A DNA stretch of 34,305 bases, taken from Deltaproteobacteria bacterium (GTDB lineage: Bacteria > Myxococcota_A > Polyangia > Haliangiales > Haliangiaceae). Shown here piece by piece: positions 1,892-17,289 of the stretch. How positions within the stretch are numbered: position 1 is the stretch's first letter; each line of letters opens with the position of its first letter. A program made the translations under genes and the position numbers. The stretch lies in NCBI GenBank assembly GCA_013813765.1, contig JACCRC010000509.1:1-34305 (forward strand), written 5' to 3'. Below the pieces are notes generated by a model. That model made no database searches. It had not been told where the DNA came from and worked only from the letters and a program-made list of their open reading frames with translations.

Positions 1892-2794
1892 CTAGGTCAT
1901 CGGCCGCACGAGGCGGCGGGTCCACGCGATACCGCCGAGCCACAGCGCGACCGCGACGAGCAGGATCATCCGCCCGCCGCCGTCGTACAGGAGCGTGCCG
2001 GCGTAGTTGGGGTCGCTCGCCATCGCGAGCACGAAGAAGCCGACCGGCATCAGCGCGAGCATGCGCGCCGACTGGCGGCCCTCGGCGGTGAGCGCGCGGA
2101 GCCGCGTCTGGTAGCCGGAGCGCGCGCGCGCGTTCTCGACGATGCGGTCGATCACCTGGATCAAGTTCCCGCCGGTCTCCTGCAGCACCGCGACGGCGAC
2201 AACGAACGTCTCGACCGCCGTGCAGCCGGGCAGCCGCTCGCCCATCGCCTTCAGCACTTCGGTGATCGGACGGCCGAGCTGCTGCTGCTCGTGCGCGAAC
2301 CGCAGCTCGTGACACAGCGGTGCGGGCGCCTCCTGCGCGGCGAGGTCGAGCGCACCGGGCAGCGCGTGACCCGCGCGCAAGGCGAGCGCCATGATCTCGA
2401 GCGCCTGCGGCATCTGCTCGTCGCACTGGGCGAGCCTGCGTGCGCGGGCGCGCCGCACGATGAACCACATCGCCGAGCATGCGAGGAGGGCGAGCACCAC
2501 GCTCATCGCACCGGAGCCGAGCGCGATCCCGCCGACGAGGCCGAGCAGCGCCGCGACACCGATGCGCGTGACGAGGTCAGAGGCGGTCCAGCCGAGGCCG
2601 CTCTCCGCGAGCCAGCGTCCGAGGCCGGTCGCCTCGTCCTGCATGAGCTCGTCCTGCTTGGTCTTGCGCTCGCCGAGCCGGCGACGCAGCACGTCCGACG
2701 CGCGGAGCCGTCGCGCGTTCCACAGCAGGAACGCCGCGAGGAACAGCGCGAGCACGCCGGTGAACGCAACCGGTCCGAGGACGGTGGGATCCAT
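1892..2794 (-). CDS. tadB: Tad inner-membrane platform protein TadB (T2SSF domain)
   Basis: The protein has 300 residues. Its layout is an N-terminal membrane segment (about 7-25), a basic linker, two membrane segments (about 77-113), a T2SSF cytoplasmic domain with EQMPQALEIMALALRAGHAL at 125-144 and the conserved ETGGNL near 206-211, and C-terminal membrane segments around 247-292. The family forms the inner-membrane platform of the Tad pilus. The ATG overlaps the tadA stop by one base (TGATG), which fixes the start and suggests coupled translation. Nothing looks broken. Confidence 0.9.
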   Translation of the reverse strand: MDPTVLGPVAFTGVLALFLAAFLLWNARRLRASDVLRRRLGERKTKQDELMQDEATGLGRWLAESGLGWTASDLVTRIGVAALLGLVGGIALGSGAMSVVLALLACSAMWFIVRRARARRLAQCDEQMPQALEIMALALRAGHALPGALDLAAQEAPAPLCHELRFAHEQQQLGRPITEVLKAMGERLPGCTAVETFVVAVAVLQETGGNLIQVIDRIVENARARSGYQTRLRALTAEGRQSARMLALMPVGFFVLAMASDPNYAGTLLYDGGGRMILLVAVALWLGGIAWTRRLVRPMT

Positions 2795-4122
2795 CAGCCG
2801 ACCTCCCCGCTCGCGGCGCCCTTGATCACGCCCGCGCTGCGGAAGCGATCGCCGAGTAGCGACTGCGCCTTCTGCACGTGGCGGCCGATCACCGCGCCAT
2901 CCGACGACACGCCGCTGCGCTCGTATGCGAACAGCGTGTGCGTCGCGATCCGCGCGCCCTCCGCACCTGCGACCTCGGAGATCGCGGTGACGCGACGCTT
3001 GCCGTCCTGCATGCGCGCGACCTGGACGACGATGTGCACGCTGCGCGTGATCATCTGCGCCATCGTCGCCTCGGCGAGCGGCGTGCCGCTCATGCCGAGC
3101 ATCGTCATCAAGCGGTTCATCGCGTCGTCCGGGTTGTTCGCGTGCACCGTTGCCATCGAGCCGTCGTGGCCCGTGTTCATCGCTTGCAGCATGTCGATGA
3201 CCTCGGCGCCGCGAACCTCGCCGACGATGATGCGGTCGGGGCGCATGCGCAGCGCGTTCTTGACGAGGTCGCGAATCGACACCGCGCCCTTGCCCTCGAG
3301 GTTCGCCGGGCGCGCCTCGAGGCGCACGACGTGCGGCTGCTGCATGCGCAGCTCGGCGGCGTCCTCGGCGGTGATGATGCGCTCGCGCTTCGAGATGAAG
3401 CCCGAGAGGAGATTCAAGAGCGTCGTCTTGCCGGCACCGGTGCCGCCCGACACGATGATCGAGCACCGCGCGCGCACCGCGAGGTGAAGATACGAGAGCA
3501 TGTCGGGGGACAGGGCGCCGCTGCGCACGAGGTCCTCGCCGGTCAGCGCCTTCTGCGAGAAGCGACGGATCGAGAGCGCCGAGCCATCGATCGCGAGCGG
3601 TGGGATCACCGCGTTGATGCGGCTGCCGTCGGGGAGCCGCGCATCCACCATCGGCGAGCTCTCGTCGATGCGGCGGCCGATCCGCGCGACCATGCGCTGG
3701 ATCGTGTGGAGCAGGTGGCGGTCGTCGCGGAACCGCACGTCGGTCAGCATCAGCTTGCCCTCGCGCTCCACGAACACGCGATCGGGACCGTTGACGAGGA
3801 CGTCGGACACCGTCGGGTCGGCGAGCAGCACCTCGAGCGGGCCGTGGCCGGTCAGCTCGTCGAGCACCTGATCGACGAGTGCCCCGAGCTCGCCCGACGA
3901 CACCGCCACGCCTTCGGTGAGCACGAGCTGCTCGAGGATGGAGCGCAGCCGCGCGCGCAGCTCCTCGGGCGCGAGCTGGCTGACCGCGGCGAGGTCAAGC
4001 CGGTCGAGGATCTTGTGGTGCAGGCGCGATGCGATCGACGCGAGGTCTTCCTTCGCATCGCCATAGCCGGCGCCCGCGGCCGTCTCGCGCTTGAGCTTCG
4101 AAGCGAACCGGGAGAGCTGCAT
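2794..4122 (-). CDS. tadA: Tad pilus assembly ATPase TadA/CpaF
   Basis: A 442-residue hexameric secretion ATPase that powers assembly of the Flp pilus at the inner membrane. The N-terminal region (about 20-110) carries the helical and PAS-like part with TGHGPLEVLLADPTVSDVLV. Walker A is GGTGAGKTT at 226-234, the Walker B region is RIIVGEVRGAE near 297-307, and the His box TGHDGSMATVHANN spans about 317-330. All key residues are present. The start overlaps the cpaE stop by one base and the stop overlaps the tadB start by one base. Length is normal for CpaF. One ATPase gene is visible, so extension and any retraction would use the same motor. Confidence 0.96.
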   Translation of the reverse strand: MQLSRFASKLKRETAAGAGYGDAKEDLASIASRLHHKILDRLDLAAVSQLAPEELRARLRSILEQLVLTEGVAVSSGELGALVDQVLDELTGHGPLEVLLADPTVSDVLVNGPDRVFVEREGKLMLTDVRFRDDRHLLHTIQRMVARIGRRIDESSPMVDARLPDGSRINAVIPPLAIDGSALSIRRFSQKALTGEDLVRSGALSPDMLSYLHLAVRARCSIIVSGGTGAGKTTLLNLLSGFISKRERIITAEDAAELRMQQPHVVRLEARPANLEGKGAVSIRDLVKNALRMRPDRIIVGEVRGAEVIDMLQAMNTGHDGSMATVHANNPDDAMNRLMTMLGMSGTPLAEATMAQMITRSVHIVVQVARMQDGKRRVTAISEVAGAEGARIATHTLFAYERSGVSSDGAVIGRHVQKAQSLLGDRFRSAGVIKGAASGEVG

Positions 4123-5210
4123 CACACGCCTTCCTTGCGACGGAGCCAACCGAACAGGCCGCGCCGCGGCGTCGACGTCCGCGGAGCCTCCTTGGTCTTG
4201 CAGAGCGTCGCGACCGTCGCGAGATCGGTCGCGATTGGCCGACTGCGCGCGACGTCGACGAGCAGCGCGCCCGCATCGAGCGCTTCGCCGACGCGGCCGT
4301 CCTCGCGCACGCGCGCGGCGATCTTCATGCCAAGCGCGCGCTCGATCGAAGCGTCGTCGATCGCCGCGCGCCGCACGGCTCGGTTGACGACCAGCGCACA
4401 CCGACCATCGGCGATGCCGAGGCGGGCGAGCAGCGTAAGCACGCGCGCGGCGCGGCGCACCGACGCGACGTCCTGCGTGACGACCACGAGGATGCGCGTC
4501 GCCTGCTCGAGCGCCGCGAGCGAGACGTCGCCGAAGTCGCGGACGCCGTCGACGACAACATGATCGAAGTGACCGCGCAGCGTATCGAGGAGCAGCGGCA
4601 GCCGGGCGGGCAGGGCGGGGTCGAGGTCCTCGACGTGGCCGGCCTGCGTCAGCGCGCACACACCGGATCCGTGCTGCACGAGCCGGCGCCGCAAGGACGC
4701 GGCATCGAGGGCGTGCGCCTCGCGCGCCACTGCGGACAGCGACGTCTGCGGCTCGAGGTCGAGCGCGACGCACACGTCACCGAGCTGGAGATCGAGGTCG
4801 ACGAGGCAGACGCTCTTGGCGCCGCGCGCGAGCATCGCAGCGGTGTTGACCGCGAGCGTCGTCGAGCCCGCGCCGCCGCGGCAGCCGAACACCACGGTGA
4901 GCTCGCCGCGCGGTGCGGTCTGCGCGACCTGGACCTCGGGAGGCGTCGCGCGGGGCGCGCGCGGGAGCTGCTCGATCACCGAGTACTCCTCGACCACGGG
5001 CACGAACTTCTGCTGCACCGGCGCCGGCGGCGGCAAGGGCGCCGCAACCGGCGCGTGCACGACCGGCGCGCGGTACGACACCGTCGGCATCACGGTCTCG
5101 GCGGGGACGAACGCCGGGAGCTTGCGCGGCGCGCTGCCCTTGCGCTGGTCGACGCGCGTCGCCGGCTCGTCCTGGTAATCGTTGCGAAGATTGCGGTGCG
5201 GGTGGGCCAT
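4122..5210 (-). CDS. cpaE: CpaE/TadZ-like ParA-family localisation ATPase
   Basis: The protein has 362 residues. The first 100 or so are Pro/Ala-rich and look disordered, where classical CpaE has a receiver domain. From residue 104 a ParA/MinD-like fold begins with VVFGCRGGAGSTTLAVN, followed by VCLVDLDLQLGDV (about 134-146) and DHVVVDGVRDFGDV near 206. The P-loop reads RGGAGSTT, so the lysine of the usual GKT/GKS is replaced by Ser, as is common in TadZ proteins. The C-terminus ends in basic GLFGWLRRKEG. CpaE/TadZ proteins position the Tad machine at a pole or focus. The start ATG at 5210 lies 10 bases from the cpaC stop; upstream in-frame codons are low-complexity shadow of cpaC. Confidence 0.88.
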   Translation of the reverse strand: MAHPHRNLRNDYQDEPATRVDQRKGSAPRKLPAFVPAETVMPTVSYRAPVVHAPVAAPLPPPAPVQQKFVPVVEEYSVIEQLPRAPRATPPEVQVAQTAPRGELTVVFGCRGGAGSTTLAVNTAAMLARGAKSVCLVDLDLQLGDVCVALDLEPQTSLSAVAREAHALDAASLRRRLVQHGSGVCALTQAGHVEDLDPALPARLPLLLDTLRGHFDHVVVDGVRDFGDVSLAALEQATRILVVVTQDVASVRRAARVLTLLARLGIADGRCALVVNRAVRRAAIDDASIERALGMKIAARVREDGRVGEALDAGALLVDVARSRPIATDLATVATLCKTKEAPRTSTPRRGLFGWLRRKEGV

Positions 5211-5220
5211 GGGATTGTCC

Positions 5221-6660
5221 TCAGCGCTTGAAGCCAACGGCACCGGCGGGAGAGCCGCCGCGCTTGCTCTCGGCGCGGCCGAGAAAGAACAGTTCGAGAT
5301 CGCCCGGGTCGACGAGGGTCTTCTCGCCGGGGAGCGCGGGCTTCGTGTCGAGCGGCTGCACGGTGTGTGCCGTGACGACGACGAGCAGCTCCGTCTCCTG
5401 ACGGCGGTACGCGCTCGAGCGGAACAACGTGCCGAGGACCGGAATGTCACCGAGCAGCGGCACCTTGTCGACCGACGAGCGGACCTCGTCGGAGATCAGA
5501 CCGGCGATCACGAACGACTGGCCATCGACGAGGCGCACGGTGGTCTCGGAGTGGCGCTCGCGCAGCCCGGGGACCTGCGTCGAGGCGATCCGCACGCCGA
5601 TCGACTGGTCGATGTCGGACACCGTGACACCGAGGTCGAGCGTGATGTCGCGACCCGACACCGTCGGCGTCATGACGAGCTGGATGCCGAACTTGCGGTA
5701 CTCGATGCCGAGCTGGCCGAGTGCCTGCGGAAGCGGCACGGGGAACTCCCCGCCGGCGAGGAACGACGCGCTCTTGCCGCTCATCGCGACCAGCGTCGGC
5801 TCGGCGAGCGTGCGCGCGTAGCCCTTCGACGAGAGCAGCGAGAGCGCGGCGGAGAACGGAAAGCCGCCGAGGGTCGAGCTGAACACGAACCCGAACGCGC
5901 CGCCGATCGGCCCCGAGACGAGGGGAGCGCCGGCCGCGTCGTGGTTCAGGTTGCCGATCGCGCCGTTCGACGGATCCGGCGACACGTTATTGAGGTCGGT
6001 GCCGGGCGAGAGCATGCCCGCCGAGTAGCCGGTGCCACGGCCCGCGTAGGACTTCTTGCTGAAGAAGTTGAAGCCGATCTCGCGCAGGCTCGAGCGCGAC
6101 ACCTCGGCGAACGACACCTCGAGCTGCACCTGCTGCGCGCCCGTGAGCGTCATCGCGTTGACGAGCGTCGGATCGCCGCCATCGAACACGCCCGCGGCAA
6201 TGCCACCGACGATCTTCTCGGCACGCTCGAGGTCCTCGGCGTTCGCGACCTCGCCCGACAGGATGACCGCGCGGCCCGCGTGTGCCACGTCGAGGTTCTT
6301 GCCGGTCGGCAGCGCGCGACGCAGTGCATCGCGCATCTCGTGAACCGGCCAGCCGACGTCGATCGCGACGACCTTCGCCTCGCCGCCGACCCACACCGTC
6401 GCGGTGGTGCGACCGGGGCGCAGGCCGGAGATCAGCAGCTGGTCTGGGTCGAACGCGGTGACCGACGCGATCTGTGCGTCGCCGACTGCCACGCGCGAGA
6501 CCTGCTTGCCCATGCGCAGGTAGCTCGAGCTTCCGACCGTGACGCCGACGGTGCGGTCGGCCTTGGGCGCCGTGTCGGGCGCGTCCTGCGCCGAAGCGAG
6601 ACGCGGTGCGACGACATTCGCCGCGGCGAGTGCCAGGACGAGAGCGAGCTTACTTGGCAT
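5221..6660 (-). CDS. cpaC: Tad outer-membrane secretin CpaC/RcpA
   Basis: The protein has 479 residues. A Sec signal peptide (1-24) ends in LASA before QDAP. An N-terminal pilus-formation domain covers about 36-103, with SRVAVGDAQIASVTA and the LRPGRTTATVW strand. A BON-like segment follows (about 105-170), and the secretin domain (about 175-430) contains LLSSKGYARTLAEPTLVAMS, GIQLVMTPTVSG and the VPLLGDIPVLGTLFRS closing motif. The last 40 residues are a hydrophilic tail. The ring forms the outer-membrane pore for the Flp pilus. The ATG lies inside the last codons of cpaB, an 11-base overlap, which implies translational coupling. Confidence 0.95.
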   Translation of the reverse strand: MPSKLALVLALAAANVVAPRLASAQDAPDTAPKADRTVGVTVGSSSYLRMGKQVSRVAVGDAQIASVTAFDPDQLLISGLRPGRTTATVWVGGEAKVVAIDVGWPVHEMRDALRRALPTGKNLDVAHAGRAVILSGEVANAEDLERAEKIVGGIAAGVFDGGDPTLVNAMTLTGAQQVQLEVSFAEVSRSSLREIGFNFFSKKSYAGRGTGYSAGMLSPGTDLNNVSPDPSNGAIGNLNHDAAGAPLVSGPIGGAFGFVFSSTLGGFPFSAALSLLSSKGYARTLAEPTLVAMSGKSASFLAGGEFPVPLPQALGQLGIEYRKFGIQLVMTPTVSGRDITLDLGVTVSDIDQSIGVRIASTQVPGLRERHSETTVRLVDGQSFVIAGLISDEVRSSVDKVPLLGDIPVLGTLFRSSAYRRQETELLVVVTAHTVQPLDTKPALPGEKTLVDPGDLELFFLGRAESKRGGSPAGAVGFKR

Positions 6661-7591
6661 TGAGAACCTCGATCGCGCCGCCCGTGGAGGACGACTTGCT
6701 GGGGACATCGGACTTGTCGGAGGCAACGAGCTGGATGCTGCGGTTCTTGCGCTTGACCGTCGGCACGTTGCCCTTCGGCGCGCCGTCGGCGGGCGCGGCC
6801 GCGAGCGCGACGGCCTCGTCGGTGGGACCGAACGCGGAGAACTTCTCCGGCCTCGCACCGGTGGTCTCGACGATCGCGTCGTCGGTCGCGTTGCGCAGCA
6901 CGATGTCGATGCGGCCCTCGGAGCGCGCGACCGCGAGGATCTCCGCGTCCTCGGGCGTGACCTCGAGCGTCACGAACGTGCCGCGATCGGCCGTCTTGTC
7001 GAGGCCTTCCTCGGTGCGCGCGATACGGCGGGTCGCGACGTCGGTGTCGAGGCCGACCGACAGCACGCGCGCCGCCTGCACCGCGATCTTCGACGACGGG
7101 CCGCGGCCCATCGGGTCGCGCATCGTCGCGAGGATGTCGACCGCCGCGCCCGGATAGAGCAGGCCGGTGTATCCGGCGGCGTCATCGACCGCGACCGCGA
7201 TCGCACGCATGCGCGGCGAGAGCATGCTCGCAATGCCGGTGCCCTGACGGCTCGACGACAACCGCGCCGCGACGACCGGTTCGCCGGCCAGGATGCCGAC
7301 GGTCGGCGTCGCGTGCTGCGCGGACGCGAGCAAGAGCTCGACGGTGGCGAACGAGCCAGCGGGAACCGCGTCCTCGGGCCACTCGCGCACCACGAGCACG
7401 TCGCGCGTCAGCGGCTGGCCGGCCTTGAGCTCGGCGGTCGCGACGACGACCGGCGCGACGCGCGTGCCGGAGTAGCTCGACTTCATCGAGTTGCCGATCG
7501 TGAACGCCGCGAGTGCCGCGCAGCCGAGCGCGATCGCGAGGAACCCGAGCGCGCCCAGACGGGACGCACCTGTCTTGACAGAGGAACGCAT
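6650..7591 (-). CDS. cpaB: Flp pilus assembly protein CpaB/RcpC (SAF domain)
   Basis: The protein has 313 residues. It has one N-terminal membrane anchor (about 12-32, LGALGFLAIALGCAALAAFT), then an SAF domain (about 46-105) with ATAELKAGQPLTRDVLVV and the GEPVVAARL strand, then a RcpC/CpaB domain with LSPRMRAIAVAVDD and LYPGAAVDILATM. The last 80 residues are low-complexity Ala/Gly/Ser/Lys. CpaB proteins are periplasmic partners of the secretin and are thought to gate or stabilise it. The gene follows tadE after 21 bases and overlaps cpaC by 11. Confidence 0.92.
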   Translation of the reverse strand: MRSSVKTGASRLGALGFLAIALGCAALAAFTIGNSMKSSYSGTRVAPVVVATAELKAGQPLTRDVLVVREWPEDAVPAGSFATVELLLASAQHATPTVGILAGEPVVAARLSSSRQGTGIASMLSPRMRAIAVAVDDAAGYTGLLYPGAAVDILATMRDPMGRGPSSKIAVQAARVLSVGLDTDVATRRIARTEEGLDKTADRGTFVTLEVTPEDAEILAVARSEGRIDIVLRNATDDAIVETTGARPEKFSAFGPTDEAVALAAAPADGAPKGNVPTVKRKNRSIQLVASDKSDVPSKSSSTGGAIEVLNAK

Positions 7592-13196: not shown

Positions 13197-14054
13197 ATGA
13201 AATCTAGCACTGTCGTGATCGGGGTCGTCTGCGCGCTCGCGGCCCATGTCGTCGCGGAGCCTCGCGTCACCGTGCACCCCAAGGTCCTCCACGCCGGTGA
13301 CCCGGTGCTCGTCACCGTCACCGCGGCCAAGGAGGCTCCGACGGGAACCGCGAACGGGACCGCGCTCCAGTTCTTCCGCTCGAGGAACGGCTATCAGGCG
13401 GTGGCCGCCGTCCCGCTCGACGGTAAGGAGGACACGATGACCATCGCCGTCGACAAGGCGAAGGCCAAGGTCGTCGTTCCCGTGCGCGCCAAAAACTTTC
13501 CCGAGGCGGATGTCGTCGTCGAGGACGAGCTCGCGAATCCCGATGCACCGCAGCGCGTGCAGATCGACGCCGACAACAAGGCGATCATCGAAGCGTTGTT
13601 GAAGGCGAAGGGCGATCCGCAGTTCACGCTCGGCTTCCGCAGGCCGGGGGGACGCGTGACGTCGGCGTTCGGTGAGTGGCGTACGTTCAACGATGGCCAC
13701 AAGAGCCAGCACCTCGGCCTCGATCTGACGGCGAAGGAAGGCTCTCCGGTCCGCGCCGTCAACGCGGGCACCGTCACGTTGGTCCGCGACGCGTACCTCG
13801 CGGGAACCGTGGTCGTCGTCGCGCACGGCGGCGGTATCGGCACGGCGTACTACCACCTCAGCAAGACGAGTGTGACCGAGGGCCAAACCGTCGCCCGCGG
13901 CACGCCGATCGGCGCAGCGGGCAAGACCGGCCGCTCGACCGGCGCGCACCTGCACATCAGCGTGCGGACGCCAGGCGGCATGGTCGATCCGGCGGGCTTC
14001 TTCAAGCTGCCGATTGCACCCGCCGCGCAGCGTGGTATCGTCACTAAACGATGA
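13197..14054 (+). CDS. Secreted M23-family (LytM) metallopeptidase
   Basis: The protein has 285 residues. A Sec signal peptide (1-20, cleaved after HVVA) is followed by an Ig-like beta domain (about 22-112) and the LytM domain (about 145-270). Zinc ligands are visible: H172 and D176 in SQHLGLDLT, and H253 in [10 protein letters not shown]220 in YYHLSK is the usual second catalytic His. All catalytic residues are present, so it is likely an active peptidoglycan endopeptidase in the periplasm or outside the cell. The stop overlaps the arsR start in an ATGA, and the last six codons carry the -10 box and operator of arsR. The start was chosen for the signal peptide and the promoter. Confidence 0.92.
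14014..14041 (+). promoter_or_regulatory. Predicted arsR promoter inside the 3' end of the M23 gene
   Basis: TTGCAC (14014-14019) and TATCGT (14036-14041) are separated by 16 bases. The arsR ATG begins 9 bases after the -10 box, which implies a leaderless or nearly leaderless mRNA. The promoter lies wholly inside the coding sequence of the peptidase, so the arsenic operon can fire separately although its first gene overlaps the peptidase stop. Confidence 0.5.
14036..14052. promoter_or_regulatory. Candidate ArsR operator O1 over the arsR start
   Basis: An inverted repeat ATCGT-CACTAA-ACGAT (14037-14052) overlaps the -10 hexamer and ends in the arsR start codon. The arms and the 6-base spacer match the core of the second repeat at 14373-14394. 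A repressor bound here would block polymerase directly. Autoregulation by ArsR is the norm in this family; binding to this site is inferred. Confidence 0.55.
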
Positions 14055-14371
14055 AAGCGGCGGCCTGCTGCCCCACCCCGGATCTGCGTGCGATCGGCGA
14101 CGAGGTCGCCGACGAGGCCCTGGCCAGCCTGGCCAAGGCGCTCGCGCACCCGATCCGGGTGCAGATCGTCCGGATCCTCGCTCGCACCGAGAGCTGCGTG
14201 TGCGGCGATCTCGTCGAGCAGCTGCCCGTTGCGCAGTCCACGGTGTCGCAGCACCTCAAGGTCTTGAAAGATGCGGGCCTGATCCAGGGGACGATCGACG
14301 GCCCGCGGGTCTGCTACTGCATCGACCCCGAGGGTTTGCGGCGCTTGCGTGTCCTGGTCTCCGGGTTGTAG
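14051..14371 (+). CDS. arsR: ArsR-family arsenic-responsive repressor
   Basis: A 106-residue winged-helix repressor. The core [21 protein letters not shown] is followed by [12 protein letters not shown], which carries the type-I metalloid site (C49, C51) at the DNA-binding end, and the recognition helix [18 protein letters not shown]. Extra Cys pairs lie at C6-C7 (AACCP) and C88/C90 (VCYC) and could be third ligands for As(III). Binding of arsenite or Sb(III) should release it from DNA. It heads a plus-strand operon and its ATG overlaps the M23 stop. Two matching inverted repeats, at its own start and at the aquaporin start, are probable operators. Confidence 0.93.
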
Positions 14372-14372
14372 T

Positions 14373-14394
14373 CTTATCGTTAAATGACGATAAG
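14373..14394. promoter_or_regulatory. Perfect 22-base inverted repeat over the aquaporin start (candidate operator O2)
   Basis: CTTATCGT-TAAATG-ACGATAAG has perfect 8-base arms and a 6-base spacer that contains the aquaporin start codon (14384-14386). It begins 2 bases after the arsR stop. Its core ATCGT-N6-ACGAT is the same as O1. It may be a second ArsR site; as RNA it would also form a short hairpin with the AUG in the loop, which could reduce translation of the downstream genes relative to arsR. Confidence 0.6.
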
Positions 14395-15091
14395 TGCAGC
14401 GCGAGCGTACGCGGCCGAGCTGCTCGGCACGATGCTCCTGCTCGCGACGATCGTCGGCTCGGGGATCATGGCGCAGACCCTGAGCCCGGCGAACATGGGC
14501 GTCGCGCTGCTCGCGAATGCGGTCGCCACGGGTGGAATCCTGTACGTGCTGATCCTCGGGCTCGGCCCGATCTCCGGCGCGCACATGAATCCGGTCATCA
14601 CGCTGATCGAGGCAGCGTTCCGGCGACTCCCACGCGAGCGCGTCCCCGGCTATGTCATCGCGCAGCTGATCGGCGCGTGTGCGGGCGTTGTCCTCGCGCA
14701 CGCGATGTTCGGGCTCGAGCTCGTGCAGCACGGCACCCGTGCGCGCGATAGCTCCGGGGAGCTGATCAGCGAGGTCGTCGCGATGTTCGGACTGTGGCTC
14801 GTGATCGCGACGTCGAGCCGCGCGCGCCCGGCGAGCGTGCCGGCGGCCGTGGCGCTGTACATCGTCGCGGCCTACTGGTTCACGGCCTCGACGTCGTTCG
14901 CCAATCCGGCGGTCACGCTCGCACGCTCGTTCACCGAGACGTTCGCCGGCATCCGGCTCGCGGACGCGCCGAAGTTCATCGCGATGCAGGTGATCGGCGG
15001 CGCCGCCGCGGCGGGGCTGACCGCCTGGCTGCTGAATTCCGGCGTCCATCCGGATCCAGCTGCGTCTTCCTCCACGAAGGAGACACCATGA
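14384..15091 (+). CDS. aqpS: AqpS-type aquaglyceroporin (arsenite channel)
   Basis: A 235-residue six-helix MIP channel. The first half has AELLGTMLLLATIVGSGIMA and the first pore loop SGAHMNPVIT, where NPA is NPV (69-71). The second loop is SFANPAVTLARS with NPA at 174-176 and filter Arg at 181. AqpS of Sinorhizobium meliloti, in an arsR-aqpS-arsC-arsH operon, lets arsenite formed inside the cell diffuse out in place of an ArsB/Acr3 pump. No pump gene is seen here, so the same role is likely. It overlaps arsM by 4 bases (ATGA). The Ser-rich hydrophilic C-terminal tail is not conserved. Water or glycerol transport is the alternative. Confidence 0.87.
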   Translation: MTISAARAYAAELLGTMLLLATIVGSGIMAQTLSPANMGVALLANAVATGGILYVLILGLGPISGAHMNPVITLIEAAFRRLPRERVPGYVIAQLIGACAGVVLAHAMFGLELVQHGTRARDSSGELISEVVAMFGLWLVIATSSRARPASVPAAVALYIVAAYWFTASTSFANPAVTLARSFTETFAGIRLADAPKFIAMQVIGGAAAAGLTAWLLNSGVHPDPAASSSTKETP

Positions 15092-15882
15092 AGACCAGCG
15101 ATGAGATCCGGACCGACGTGAGGACCCATTACAGCGCGATCGCGCGCGGCGCCACGAGTGGCTGCTGCGGCGGTGGGCCGTGCGGCAGCGAGCAGCTCGG
15201 CTACACCAAGGACGAGCTCGCGGCGGTGCCCGCAGGCGCAGACCTCGGCCTTGGCTGCGGCAACCCACAGGCGATCGCCGCGCTGCGGCCCGGCGAGATC
15301 GTGATCGACCTCGGCGCGGGCGGCGGTTTCGACGCATTCCTCGCAGCGCGAGCGGTCGGTGCAAGCGGCAAGGTCATCGGCGTCGACATGAGCGCCGACA
15401 TGATCCAGCTCGCGCGCACCAACGCGTCGAAGCAACGAGCGGGCAACGTCGAGTTCCGGATCGGCGAGATCGAGCACCTCCCGATCCAGGACGACACCGC
15501 GGATGTCGTGATGTCGAACTGCGTGATCAACCTGTCGCCCGACAAGCCCGCGGTCTATCGCGAGGCGTTCCGCGTTCTGCGCGCGGGCGGCCGGCTCGCC
15601 ATCACCGACGTCGTCGCCTTGCGTCCTCTGCCCGCGGAGCTCGCCGACGACGTCGCCGCGATGTGCGGGTGCGTAGCAGGAGCGGCAGACCTCCACGAGC
15701 TGCGCACGCTGCTCGTCGAGATCGGCTTCACCGACGTCCAGGTCGAGGTGCTCCCCGGCAGCCGCGACGTGATCGCGGGCTGGGCGCCGGGCCGCGGCTT
15801 CGAGGAGCACGTCGCATCGGCGCGGATCTCCGCGATAAGGCCGACCGCGGGTGCGTGCTGCGCTCCGGGGTGCTGCGGATGA
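15088..15882 (+). CDS. arsM: Arsenite S-adenosylmethionine methyltransferase ArsM
   Basis: A 264-residue class I methyltransferase that converts As(III) to methylated species. The SAM-binding site is EIVIDLGAGGGFDAFLAA (about 70-87), followed by GKVIGVDMSADMIQLAR. The conserved cysteines are C57 in GLGCGNP, C145 in MSNCVINLSPDK, and C193/C195 in MCGCVAGA, matching the As(III)-binding cysteines of the family. Two extra Cys clusters are present: C26, C27, C32 near the N-terminus and C257, C258, C262, C263 in the last eight residues. A GAAGGAG ribosome binding site precedes the ATG, which overlaps the aquaporin stop. The stop overlaps the sigma factor start as ATGA. Confidence 0.94.
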   Translation: MKTSDEIRTDVRTHYSAIARGATSGCCGGGPCGSEQLGYTKDELAAVPAGADLGLGCGNPQAIAALRPGEIVIDLGAGGGFDAFLAARAVGASGKVIGVDMSADMIQLARTNASKQRAGNVEFRIGEIEHLPIQDDTADVVMSNCVINLSPDKPAVYREAFRVLRAGGRLAITDVVALRPLPAELADDVAAMCGCVAGAADLHELRTLLVEIGFTDVQVEVLPGSRDVIAGWAPGRGFEEHVASARISAIRPTAGACCAPGCCG

Positions 15883-16421
15883 TCGAGCTGCCCTGGCAGG
15901 AGCTGCGCGACGATCTGCACCGGTTCGTTGCCGCGCGCGCTCCGGCGGCCGAGGTCGACGACATCGTGCAAGAAGCGCTCGTGCGCGTCCATCAGGGCGT
16001 CTCGGCGGTCCGCGATACCGAGCGCGTCGGAGCGTGGATCTACCAGGTCACGCGAAACGCGATCGTCGATCACCACCGGCGCACGCGACACGGCGAGGAG
16101 CTGCCCGACGACACCGCCGCGCCGCCGGTGGACACCATCGACGACACCACGTTCACGCGCCTCGCGCGGTGCCTCACGCCGTTCGTCGCGCTGCTGCCGC
16201 CGGTATATCGACAGGCGATCACGCTGGTCGAGCTCGAAGGGCTCACGCAGGTCGAGGCAGCGGCGCGACTCGGCGTTCCGATCTCGACGATGAAGGCGCG
16301 CGTCCAGCGCGGCCGCGCGAGGCTGCGCGAGCTCGTCGAGGCGTGCTGTGCGATCGGGCTCGACGTGCGCGGTCATGTGGTCGACGTGATGCCAAGAGTT
16401 GAAGGCTGCAGCGCATGCTAG
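15879..16421 (+). CDS. SigZ-like ECF sigma factor with cysteine tail
   Basis: A 180-residue sigma-70 family factor. Region 2 covers about 8-70 (AAEVDDIVQEALVRVHQG, then GAWIYQVTRNAIVDHHRR). Region 4 covers about 98-152 (LLPPVYRQAITLVELEGLTQ and the helix-turn-helix GVPISTMKARVQRGRARL). The C-terminal 27 residues (154-180) carry C156-C157, a DVRGHVVDV stretch, then C177 and C180. This tail resembles that of SigZ-family factors. No anti-sigma gene is adjacent. The start overlaps the arsM stop in an ATGA. In the ars operon it could direct polymerase to a wider metalloid regulon, and the four Cys are candidate As(III) ligands; both points are inference. Confidence 0.85.
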   Translation: MIELPWQELRDDLHRFVAARAPAAEVDDIVQEALVRVHQGVSAVRDTERVGAWIYQVTRNAIVDHHRRTRHGEELPDDTAAPPVDTIDDTTFTRLARCLTPFVALLPPVYRQAITLVELEGLTQVEAAARLGVPISTMKARVQRGRARLRELVEACCAIGLDVRGHVVDVMPRVEGCSAC

Positions 16422-16431
16422 GGTGGACGTG

Positions 16432-17289
16432 ATGAGCGCGCCCGGCGTGCTGTTCCTCTGTGTCGCGAACTCGGCGCGCAGCCAGCTCGCGGAGGGCCTG
16501 GCGCGACAGCGCTTCGGTGCGGCGCTGCAGATTCAGAGCGCCGGCTCGATCCCGACGAAGGTGAATCCGTACGCGATCGAGACGATGCTGGAGGTCGGCG
16601 TCGATCTCGCCACGCATACGTCGAAGCTCGTCAGCGAGATCGATCCAAAAGGTATCGAGCTCGTGATCACGCTGTGCGCCGAGGAGGTGTGCCCCGCGTT
16701 CTACGCGCCGGTGCGCCGCATCCACTGGCCGATTCCCGATCCGGCGACGTCCGATCCGAAGGTGACCCGCGAGGAGCTCGTCGAGCGATTTCGCACCGCG
16801 CGCGGCCGGATCGGCGCGCGTCTTCACCTCATCGAGCCTGCGCTCGCGCTTCCGCCGCGCACCTTGATCGCGCCGGCGACCGCCGAGGACCGCCCCGAGA
16901 TCGGCGCCTTGATGATAACCGCTGGACTCCCGCTCGACGGTCTCGAGAAAACGGATCTCGTGGTCGCGCGGATCGATGGCCACCTTGTCGGCGCGGCGGG
17001 CCTCGAGCACTGGGGCGGCGACTGGCTCTTGCGGTCGGTGGCCGTCGCGACCGAGCATCGCAGCAGCGGAATCGCGGAGCTGCTCGTGCGCGATCGGCTG
17101 TGCATCGCGCAGCTCGGTGGGGCGACTTCGGTCCACCTCCTCACCACGGCCGCGCGCGGTTACTTCGAGCGGTTCGGCTTCACCGCGATCGAGCGTGCGA
17201 CGCTGCCGAAGGCGCTGCACCAGTCGACGCAGCTCGCGATCTCGGCGTGCTCGACGGCGATCGCGATGGTCCGCCCGATCCTCACTTGA
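16432..17289 (+). CDS. arsC: Fusion: ArsC arsenate reductase (LMW-PTPase type) plus ArsN2-like acetyltransferase
   Basis: A 285-residue two-domain protein. Residues 1-140 are a thioredoxin-type ArsC: the loop LFLCVANSARSQLAEG has C10 and R16, C82 and C87 sit in TLCAEEVCPAF, and the general-acid loop is IPDPA (102-106). These correspond to C10, C82 and C89 of the staphylococcal plasmid enzyme. Residues 145-285 are a GNAT domain of ArsN2 type: TAGLPLDGLEKTDLVVA, GAAGLEHWGGDWLLRSVAVA, acetyl-CoA loop RSSGIA, LLTTAARGYFERFGF. The first half reduces arsenate; the substrate of the second is unknown. The start at 16432 follows AGGGTGG by 6 bases; an ATG 11 codons earlier (16399) would overlap the sigma gene. 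It converges with the next gene, overlapping by 8 bases. Confidence 0.88.
   Translation: MSAPGVLFLCVANSARSQLAEGLARQRFGAALQIQSAGSIPTKVNPYAIETMLEVGVDLATHTSKLVSEIDPKGIELVITLCAEEVCPAFYAPVRRIHWPIPDPATSDPKVTREELVERFRTARGRIGARLHLIEPALALPPRTLIAPATAEDRPEIGALMITAGLPLDGLEKTDLVVARIDGHLVGAAGLEHWGGDWLLRSVAVATEHRSSGIAELLVRDRLCIAQLGGATSVHLLTTAARGYFERFGFTAIERATLPKALHQSTQLAISACSTAIAMVRPILT

Follow-up and report, generated by a model that had tools for sequence, protein, structure and literature searches.

How do a repressor and a sigma factor share the control of one short run of arsenic genes? The question is raised by a 34,305-nucleotide stretch of a deltaproteobacterial genome (assembly GCA_013813765.1, contig JACCRC010000509.1, Haliangiaceae; the whole stretch is called the window below), where five genes lie on one strand (14051–17289): arsR, a MIP-family channel gene, arsM, the gene of a SigZ-like extracytoplasmic function (ECF) sigma factor and an arsC::arsN2-like fusion (Table 1). 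A sequence-only reading had taken them for one operon with a dedicated sigma factor. All five are present, in that order and co-directional, but they do not form one simple, uniform operon, because ArsR-type operators sit at arsR and the channel gene while a SigZ-type site is nested before arsM, sigZ and the fusion gene (arsCN). We consider it likely that the locus holds two coupled, nested arsenic circuits, in which ArsR would act on arsR and the channel gene, SigZ on arsM-sigZ-arsCN, and arsenic would switch the sigma factor through its cysteine tail.

The evidence that carries this reading is a promoter motif. A SigZ model was run against 377 genomes of the phylum and, from the block of strong matches among those listed, 80 stretches were taken, 75 as SigZ matches (nearly all ≥ 110 bits) and five as arsM loci of close relatives; two rows at ≥ 110 bits (G023, G013) were left out, and true SigZ relatives exist below the limit (L350). 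Spaced word pairs were counted in the upstream regions with no motif assumed, and TGCGT-N17-CGTC ranked first (35 of 74 regions, about 0.3 or fewer expected), the ECF-type consensus upstream of SigZ blocks being TGCGTCC-N15-CGTCT. Its geometry and its CGTC box are as in ECF promoters. The same pair came first in a second set of 72 regions lying, by record title, outside Myxococcota (28 of 72, none in eight shuffles), 16 of the 28 being Nitrospirota and 12 belonging to Actinomycetota, Acidobacteriota, Bacteroidota, Chloroflexota, Alphaproteobacteria and Verrucomicrobiota; L286 (upstream region identical to that of L284), six loci titled as Myxococcota and one short region had been left out of this set. 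A widened form, [TG]GC[GA]TC-N16-CGTC, searched within 260 bp upstream, was found at 38 of 39 arsM-sigZ loci (window included) and at 12 of 19 arsI-sigZ loci, in total 50 of 58 against a mean of 0.2 and a maximum of 2 of 58 in shuffled regions, a count whose weight is lowered by the fact that the motif was widened after inspection of the data, the window site included (L127, L128, L136 and L144 were left out). The comparison lends support to the dedicated sigma factor and the self-amplification that had been proposed from the sequence.

By these comparisons the motif is tied to SigZ loci. It precedes arsM in 13 of 15 genes with SigZ (which also belong to the discovery set) vs. 0 of 16 without SigZ, and it was found at 0 of 20 next-scoring ECF genes, a selection of such rows, one of which has an ars neighbour and is itself a SigZ. 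Strict sites numbered 47 vs. 7 for the reversed-pattern control in 71 SigZ genomes, and 46 vs. 42 in 306 others; 31 of the 47 are at SigZ loci themselves, which leaves 16 vs. 7 elsewhere, so that a wide regulon is only hinted at. These numbers bear on the idea of an ordinary ars operon under ArsR alone, with the sigma factor as a passenger and the motif read by another factor. The ArsR-type operators are indeed well placed, and conserved in a second genome of the same genus (G366), but we regard this explanation as very improbable, given that the motif tracks SigZ, that it precedes three of seven plasmid sigZ genes although neither arsM nor arsI is near, and that it has the ECF geometry and box. 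A single ArsR operon as the full account was rejected also because longer ars operons, too, have the SigZ site immediately in front of arsM (L069, L072, L075, L080, L092, L093, L102). Upstream TGCGTCC...CGTC with no arsM or arsI near was seen at SigZ genes of Rhodococcus and Nonomuraea (L148, L151, L153).

In the window the site reads GGCGTCC-N15-CGTCT and starts 47 bp before the ATG of arsM, and G366 has a site at the same distance. We infer that SigZ itself reads this nested promoter. Exact matches of the window-type site in the whole assembly number three (reversed control: two), of which the second (G000:C15:7312-7338; L155 1501-1527; L231; TGCGTCCTTCC...CGTCT) is placed 40 bp upstream of the gene for a phytochelatin synthase (PF05023, 278 bits) and the third within a coding region. 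Further sites were seen in other genomes. In L076 (G347:C26), three exact SigZ sites precede the gene of an FAD-dependent enzyme weakly similar to ArsO (by 49 bp), sigZ (by 35 bp) and an MFS gene (by 255 bp), for which ArsK is the best NCBI match, below the cut-off; an FAD enzyme is also downstream of a site in L212, at 311 bp. L225 (G380:C372) has two head-to-head SigZ sites, one before a sigma gene and one before a gene that is arsI-like by eye.

On the ArsR side, the operator pattern ATCGT-N6-ACGAT was counted 13 times in 920,808 bases of loci and 1, 0, 0, 0 and 0 times in five shuffle rounds, and 12 of the 13 sites lie at ≤ 200 bp from the start of arsR, the channel gene, acr3, arsM or sigZ. 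The footprinted site of ArArsR from Arsenicibacter rosenii is ATCGT-N6-GCGAT (PMC11868830; here as below, papers are cited for those of their sections that were available), with which the window operator agrees at nine of ten fixed bases, both being covered by ATCGT-N6-RCGAT. The spacing of Cys49/51/88/90 in the window ArsR equals that of Cys41/43/80/82 in ArArsR, with 39 residues between the pairs in both (PMC11868830). By sequence, the window ArsR has the Cys41/80/82 spacing and the operator of the ArArsR type, and its binding is predicted. Because of where the operators are placed and of the agreement with the ArArsR site and cysteine spacing, ArsR most likely governs arsR and the channel gene, with read-through into the sigma unit.

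The circuit would then work as follows. ArsR, bound to the operators at 14037 and 14376, would repress arsR and the channel gene until As(III) or methylarsenite released it, as the analogy with ArArsR suggests, and read-through would continue into arsM-sigZ-arsCN. The SigZ-like sigma factor would guide RNA polymerase to 15041–15067 and so to arsM, sigZ and the reductase-acetyltransferase gene, which would close a positive loop centred on arsenic methylation; self-amplification is predicted because, on the map, sigZ lies in the unit downstream of the nested promoter. The ArarsRMC operon of A. rosenii likewise brings arsR, arsM and arsC together, with the difference that "sigma" is not mentioned in the text of the report and that its parts covered here hold no nested promoter, channel or arsN2 (PMC11868830).

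What the sigma factor answers to is suggested by its neighbours. The gene directly upstream of SigZ in 79 phylum loci (window included) is arsM in 39, arsI in 19, arsC in three, acr3 in one and none of these in 17, four of which are not SigZ (L127, L128, L136, L144). Named genomes were scanned as well, and there SigZ adjoins arsM (25), arsI (19) or an ArsP-like gene (six; the label comes from our own profile, the best NCBI matches being SaoE and SO_0444 transporters below the cut-off) on the same strand in 50 of the 80 best loci, while 14 further loci have an ars-type gene within ~ 4 kb; all 19 arsI loci are Nitrospirota, and six of the 80 loci are Myxococcota, at least four of them already in the phylum set. 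The arsM/arsI-sigZ pair is widespread. Among the sigma-linked genes, 64 of 64 ArsM rows match NF008823 at E 1e−20 (at least four loci are counted twice, as the same contigs under two names), and 38 of 38 ArsI rows match their NCBI family. SigZ might instead respond more broadly to soft metals or thiol stress (cadmium, antimony, electrophiles), with the arsenic genes as no more than its commonest clients; NCBI groups ArsI and CadI in a single family that bears both names, this genome has a possible client in its phytochelatin synthase gene, and some SigZ genes have no ars neighbour. We find this unlikely in view of the direct upstream neighbour (ArsM, ArsI, ArsC or Acr3 in 62 of 79 loci) and of the 50 of 80 loci of the named-genome scan that adjoin ArsM, ArsI or an ArsP-like gene. 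The substrate of ArsM, moreover, is arsenic.

Whether the sigma factor also senses arsenic is a separate matter. No ArsR was found at 40 of 58 arsM/arsI-sigZ loci with our own profile, which is of limited sensitivity and met some short contigs, and 32 of these 40 have a SigZ site; a gene for a zinc-type anti-sigma factor (HxxxCxxC), the only anti-sigma type sought, lies within two genes at 0 of 53 such loci. Because of both absences, the sigma factor may be its own sensor. The window protein is a near full-length SigZ-model match with a CC...C tail. Cysteines are kept among 61 aligned sequences at position 156 in 60, 157 in 61, 180 in 50, 98 in 39 and 177 in 31, and the CC pair is present in 77 of 78 parsed loci of the wider named-genome scan. 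In the AlphaFold model (mean pLDDT 88.5) the last sigma4 helix leads into a beta-hairpin with the tail cysteines on either side, and the best Foldseek matches to the model are ECF-type sigma structures only.

The nearest described parallel is CorE of Myxococcus xanthus. CorE and CorE-like proteins are ECF sigma factors that carry a short Cys-rich extension at the C-terminus and have no anti-sigma factor linked to them, and CorE senses the redox state of copper, its tail controlling activity with the metal (PMC3107203, PMC8999054). The window sigma factor shares the ECF type, the Cys-rich tail and, as far as zinc-type proteins at the 53 loci go, the lack of a linked anti-sigma gene. It differs in having a single linker cysteine, Cys98, where CorE-like proteins (former ECF44) have a CXC (PMC8999054), a CC-x19-CxxC tail in place of Cys181/184/192/194 (CxxC-x7-CxC; PMC3107203), and arsenic-gene neighbours, its own metal response being drawn by analogy. 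On that analogy, binding of trivalent arsenic to Cys156/157/177/180, perhaps with Cys98, would activate the sigma factor as copper does CorE. Arsenic sensing by the tail is a reasoned guess, made because 13 of 20 next-scoring ECF hits share the CorE spacing, the commonest tail type among them, and because the CorE tail controls copper activity. ECF sigma factors with CorE-type tails such as CGTCATHGCVDCTC were found at L128, L136 and 13 of the 20 loci L338–L357, L128 and L136 adjoining heavy-metal P-type ATPase genes (by eye); such proteins are possibly the nearest kin of SigZ.

Alternatively, SigZ could be a sigma factor of the arsenic regulon that senses nothing, its activity following the amount set by ArsR read-through and its Cys tail being structural (zinc or disulphide). 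The position of sigZ in the window, downstream of ArsR-type operators and joined by 4-bp overlaps, fits this, as does the predicted fold of the tail as a hairpin; the 40 loci without a detected ArsR, 32 of them with a SigZ site, do not, nor do the CorE-spaced tails among the next-scoring matches, the tail of CorE being what controls its copper activity (PMC3107203). We hold this version to be doubtful, and keep to a sigma factor switched by arsenic.

Carried further, the whole SigZ family would be one-component arsenic-sensing sigma factors across bacteria, binding (methyl)arsenic(III) with the CC...CxxC tail and driving arsM, arsI and sigZ from TGCGTCC-N15-CGTCT, from Myxococcota to Nitrospirota, Bacteroidota, Chloroflexota and Actinomycetota; this extension is tentative, and we stop short of calling it probable. 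Several points weigh against the nested circuits or their generality. The model draws on sequence comparison; the ArsI/CadI neighbours and Cys tails would also fit cadmium or thiol stress; and the ars operon of Bacillus subtilis is reported to be driven by sigma-A (PMC12607644). The window site departs from the consensus at base 1 (G for T), the G366 sigma gene is frameshifted, and phytochelatin synthase did not hold up as a conserved SigZ target, with the site in one of 25 genomes that have the gene and missing from the other 24. The motif was found at 0 of 4 arsC/acr3-adjacent SigZ loci, and is lacking from 7 of 19 arsI-sigZ loci and from 40 pan-bacterial upstream regions (about half). Among 15 plasmid matches, the seven examined (Rhodococcus, Priestia, Vibrio, Nonomuraea, Hymenobacter) had arsM or arsI near in 0 of 7 loci, and the Priestia SigZ lacks the terminal Cys pair. 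A separate SigZ-like clade with acr3, arsC and ArsP/ArsE-like neighbours has no TGCGTCC motif, and the counts throughout are of related sequences, hence not of independent events.

Some of these loci deserve separate mention. The separate clade (L081, L097, L100, L112, L114, L117, L119) lies beside acr3, arsC, an ArsP/SaoE-like permease or an ArsE-like thioredoxin and has its tail cysteines arranged differently, often as CxV...VCCF; lacking TGCGTCC, it may depend on a different promoter. A second promoter motif was sought in SigZ loci without TGCGTCC, and none common to them was found. In Bellilinea caldifistulae and Anaerotalea alkaliphila, SigZ adjoins arsM and the motif is missing. The Hymenobacter SigZ has arsC and Acr3 genes ~ 2 kb away.

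We call the window protein SigZ-like because its scores are below both NCBI curated cut-offs of its best-matching family, that of B. subtilis SigZ: 161.6 bits for PRK09637 (cut-off 212; aligned over profile positions 6–181 of 181, C-terminal tail included) and 155.0 bits for TIGR02959 (cut-off 168.65), the latter being passed in only 10 of the 377 phylum genomes among the matches listed. In a tree that left out L127, L128, L136 and L144 (not SigZ) as well as L143 and L066, the window sigma stands apart from those of its own family and joins, with support 99/88, ten TGCATCC-type sigmas from another class. Eight of these ten also have arsR, a channel gene or arsC next to them, and the two observations together suggest that the cluster was acquired horizontally. 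The G/A base of the −35 element follows the sigma4 helix, the ten TGCATCC loci carrying a [PA]T[LM]K[AS]RVQRGR-like helix; we did not count this as independent proof, because the tree shows mainly one event, plus L085 and L111.

The name SigZ reportedly dates from 1997. A 2023 table of B. subtilis sigma factors gives nothing on its role beyond "ECF" in the part available (PMC10141391), and the literature covered, subscription papers and preprints not among it, yielded no arsenic link and no role for SigZ. From the comparison, a signal, a promoter and targets can be predicted for SigZ. An ECF sigma factor with a metal-sensing tail is a known kind; what appears new is the arsenic branch with its promoter, together with the nesting of the circuit. 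If the model is right, ArsR repressors would have a counterpart in bacteria that activates in response to arsenic, resembles the copper sigma factor CorE in build and often serves organoarsenic chemistry (arsM, arsI), and the motif would help in the search for further arsenic genes and possibly serve as a biosensor part.

The arrangement of the cluster itself agrees with the sequence-only reading in most respects (Table 1). The 4-base overlaps it reported are both ATGA, at 15088–15091 (channel/arsM) and 15879–15882 (arsM/sigma); arsR and the channel gene are 12 bp apart, and the sigma and arsC genes 10 bp apart if the latter starts at ATG 16432 or 1 bp if it starts at GTG 16423. The start it had placed at 14014 belongs to a TTG open reading frame in another frame, and arsR begins at ATG 14051. 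Its description of the combination as unusual is right for the exact order arsR-channel-arsM-sigZ-arsC, seen in two genomes (the window and G366), but not for the widespread arsM/arsI-sigZ pair. The gene-order comparison that it had proposed thus found the order in a relative and recurrent arsM/arsI neighbours of the sigma gene, where it had asked whether these vary at random. The G366 copy (L143, G366:C231, 3100-3750) retains the nested promoter and both ArsR-type operators, and the frameshift in its sigma gene is either decay or an assembly error. An M23 peptidase gene (13215–14054), its stop and the start of arsR sharing 4 bp (ATGA), was rejected as a member of the cluster, since G366 has a different gene before arsR (carbonic-anhydrase-like, by eye) and similarity begins to rise at the operator; with another gene in that place, the overlap looks like a chance junction.

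Table 1. Features of the arsenic cluster, in coordinates of the window
Feature	Position	Strand	Basis
ArsR-type operator 1, ATCGT-N6-ACGAT, overlapping the arsR start codon	14037–14052		Pattern count; conserved in G366
arsR, ArsR/SmtB repressor, 106 amino acids	14051–14371	+	NF033788, 81.3 bits (cut-off 55)
ArsR-type operator 2, ATCGT-N6-ACGAT, spanning the channel start codon	14376–14391		Pattern count; same place in G366
MIP-family channel (AqpS-like), 235 amino acids, NPV and NPA boxes	14384–15091	+	PF00230, 87.5 bits (cut-off 25)
Predicted SigZ-type promoter inside the 3′ end of the channel gene: −35 GGCGTCC (15041–15047), −10 CGTCT (15063–15067)	15041–15067	+	Family motif
arsM, As(III) S-adenosylmethionine methyltransferase, 264 amino acids	15088–15882	+	NF008823, 307.5 bits (cut-off 263)
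sigZ-like ECF sigma factor, 180 amino acids	15879–16421	+	Best matches PRK09637 and TIGR02959; sigma2 and sigma4 Pfam domains
C-terminal Cys tail CC-x19-C-x2-C, codons 156–180; predicted beta-hairpin after the last sigma4 helix	16344–16418	+	Alignment, AlphaFold
arsC::arsN2-like fusion, 285 amino acids (low-molecular-weight-phosphatase-type reductase and GNAT)	16432–17289	+	PF01451 and GNAT domains

In the encoded ArsM, Cys57, Cys145 and Cys195 align with those of the solved ArsM 5evj; across the sigma-linked ArsM proteins Cys145 and Cys195 are invariant and Cys57 is kept in at least 90%. In ArsM these three are the arsenic-binding residues. The channel belongs to the MIP family by sequence (TIGR00861: 88.8 bits, below its cut-off of 171.25), and its role as an arsenite exit would follow the analogy with AqpS of Sinorhizobium meliloti, in whose ars operon a MIP channel replaces the ArsB pump (PMC6205960); "sigma" is not mentioned in the text of that report, and the parts of it covered here hold no arsM-sigZ unit. 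As the sequence-only reading had noted, no ArsB or Acr3 pump gene is present within the five-gene block. Acr3 had no match at 1e−10 in the whole assembly (8.1 Mb, 88% complete), and the ArsB family gave three partial matches of 30–61 bits, so that a pump may still exist elsewhere in the genome. In the fusion protein, the ArsN2 part scores 106.7 bits (NCBIfam cut-off 125) and the thioredoxin (Trx)-type ArsC part 96.1 bits (cut-off 174.3), both below threshold, and the ArsC part keeps Cys10, Cys82 and Cys87. An arsN-arsC fusion has been reported before (PMC6205960), the difference here being that the fusion gene lies downstream of the sigma gene, inside the unit that the sigma factor is predicted to control. 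Farther upstream in the window, positions 1892–7591 hold genes of a Flp/Tad-type pilus or secretion system (T2SSF, T2SSE, ParA-like, secretin, RcpC/CpaB).

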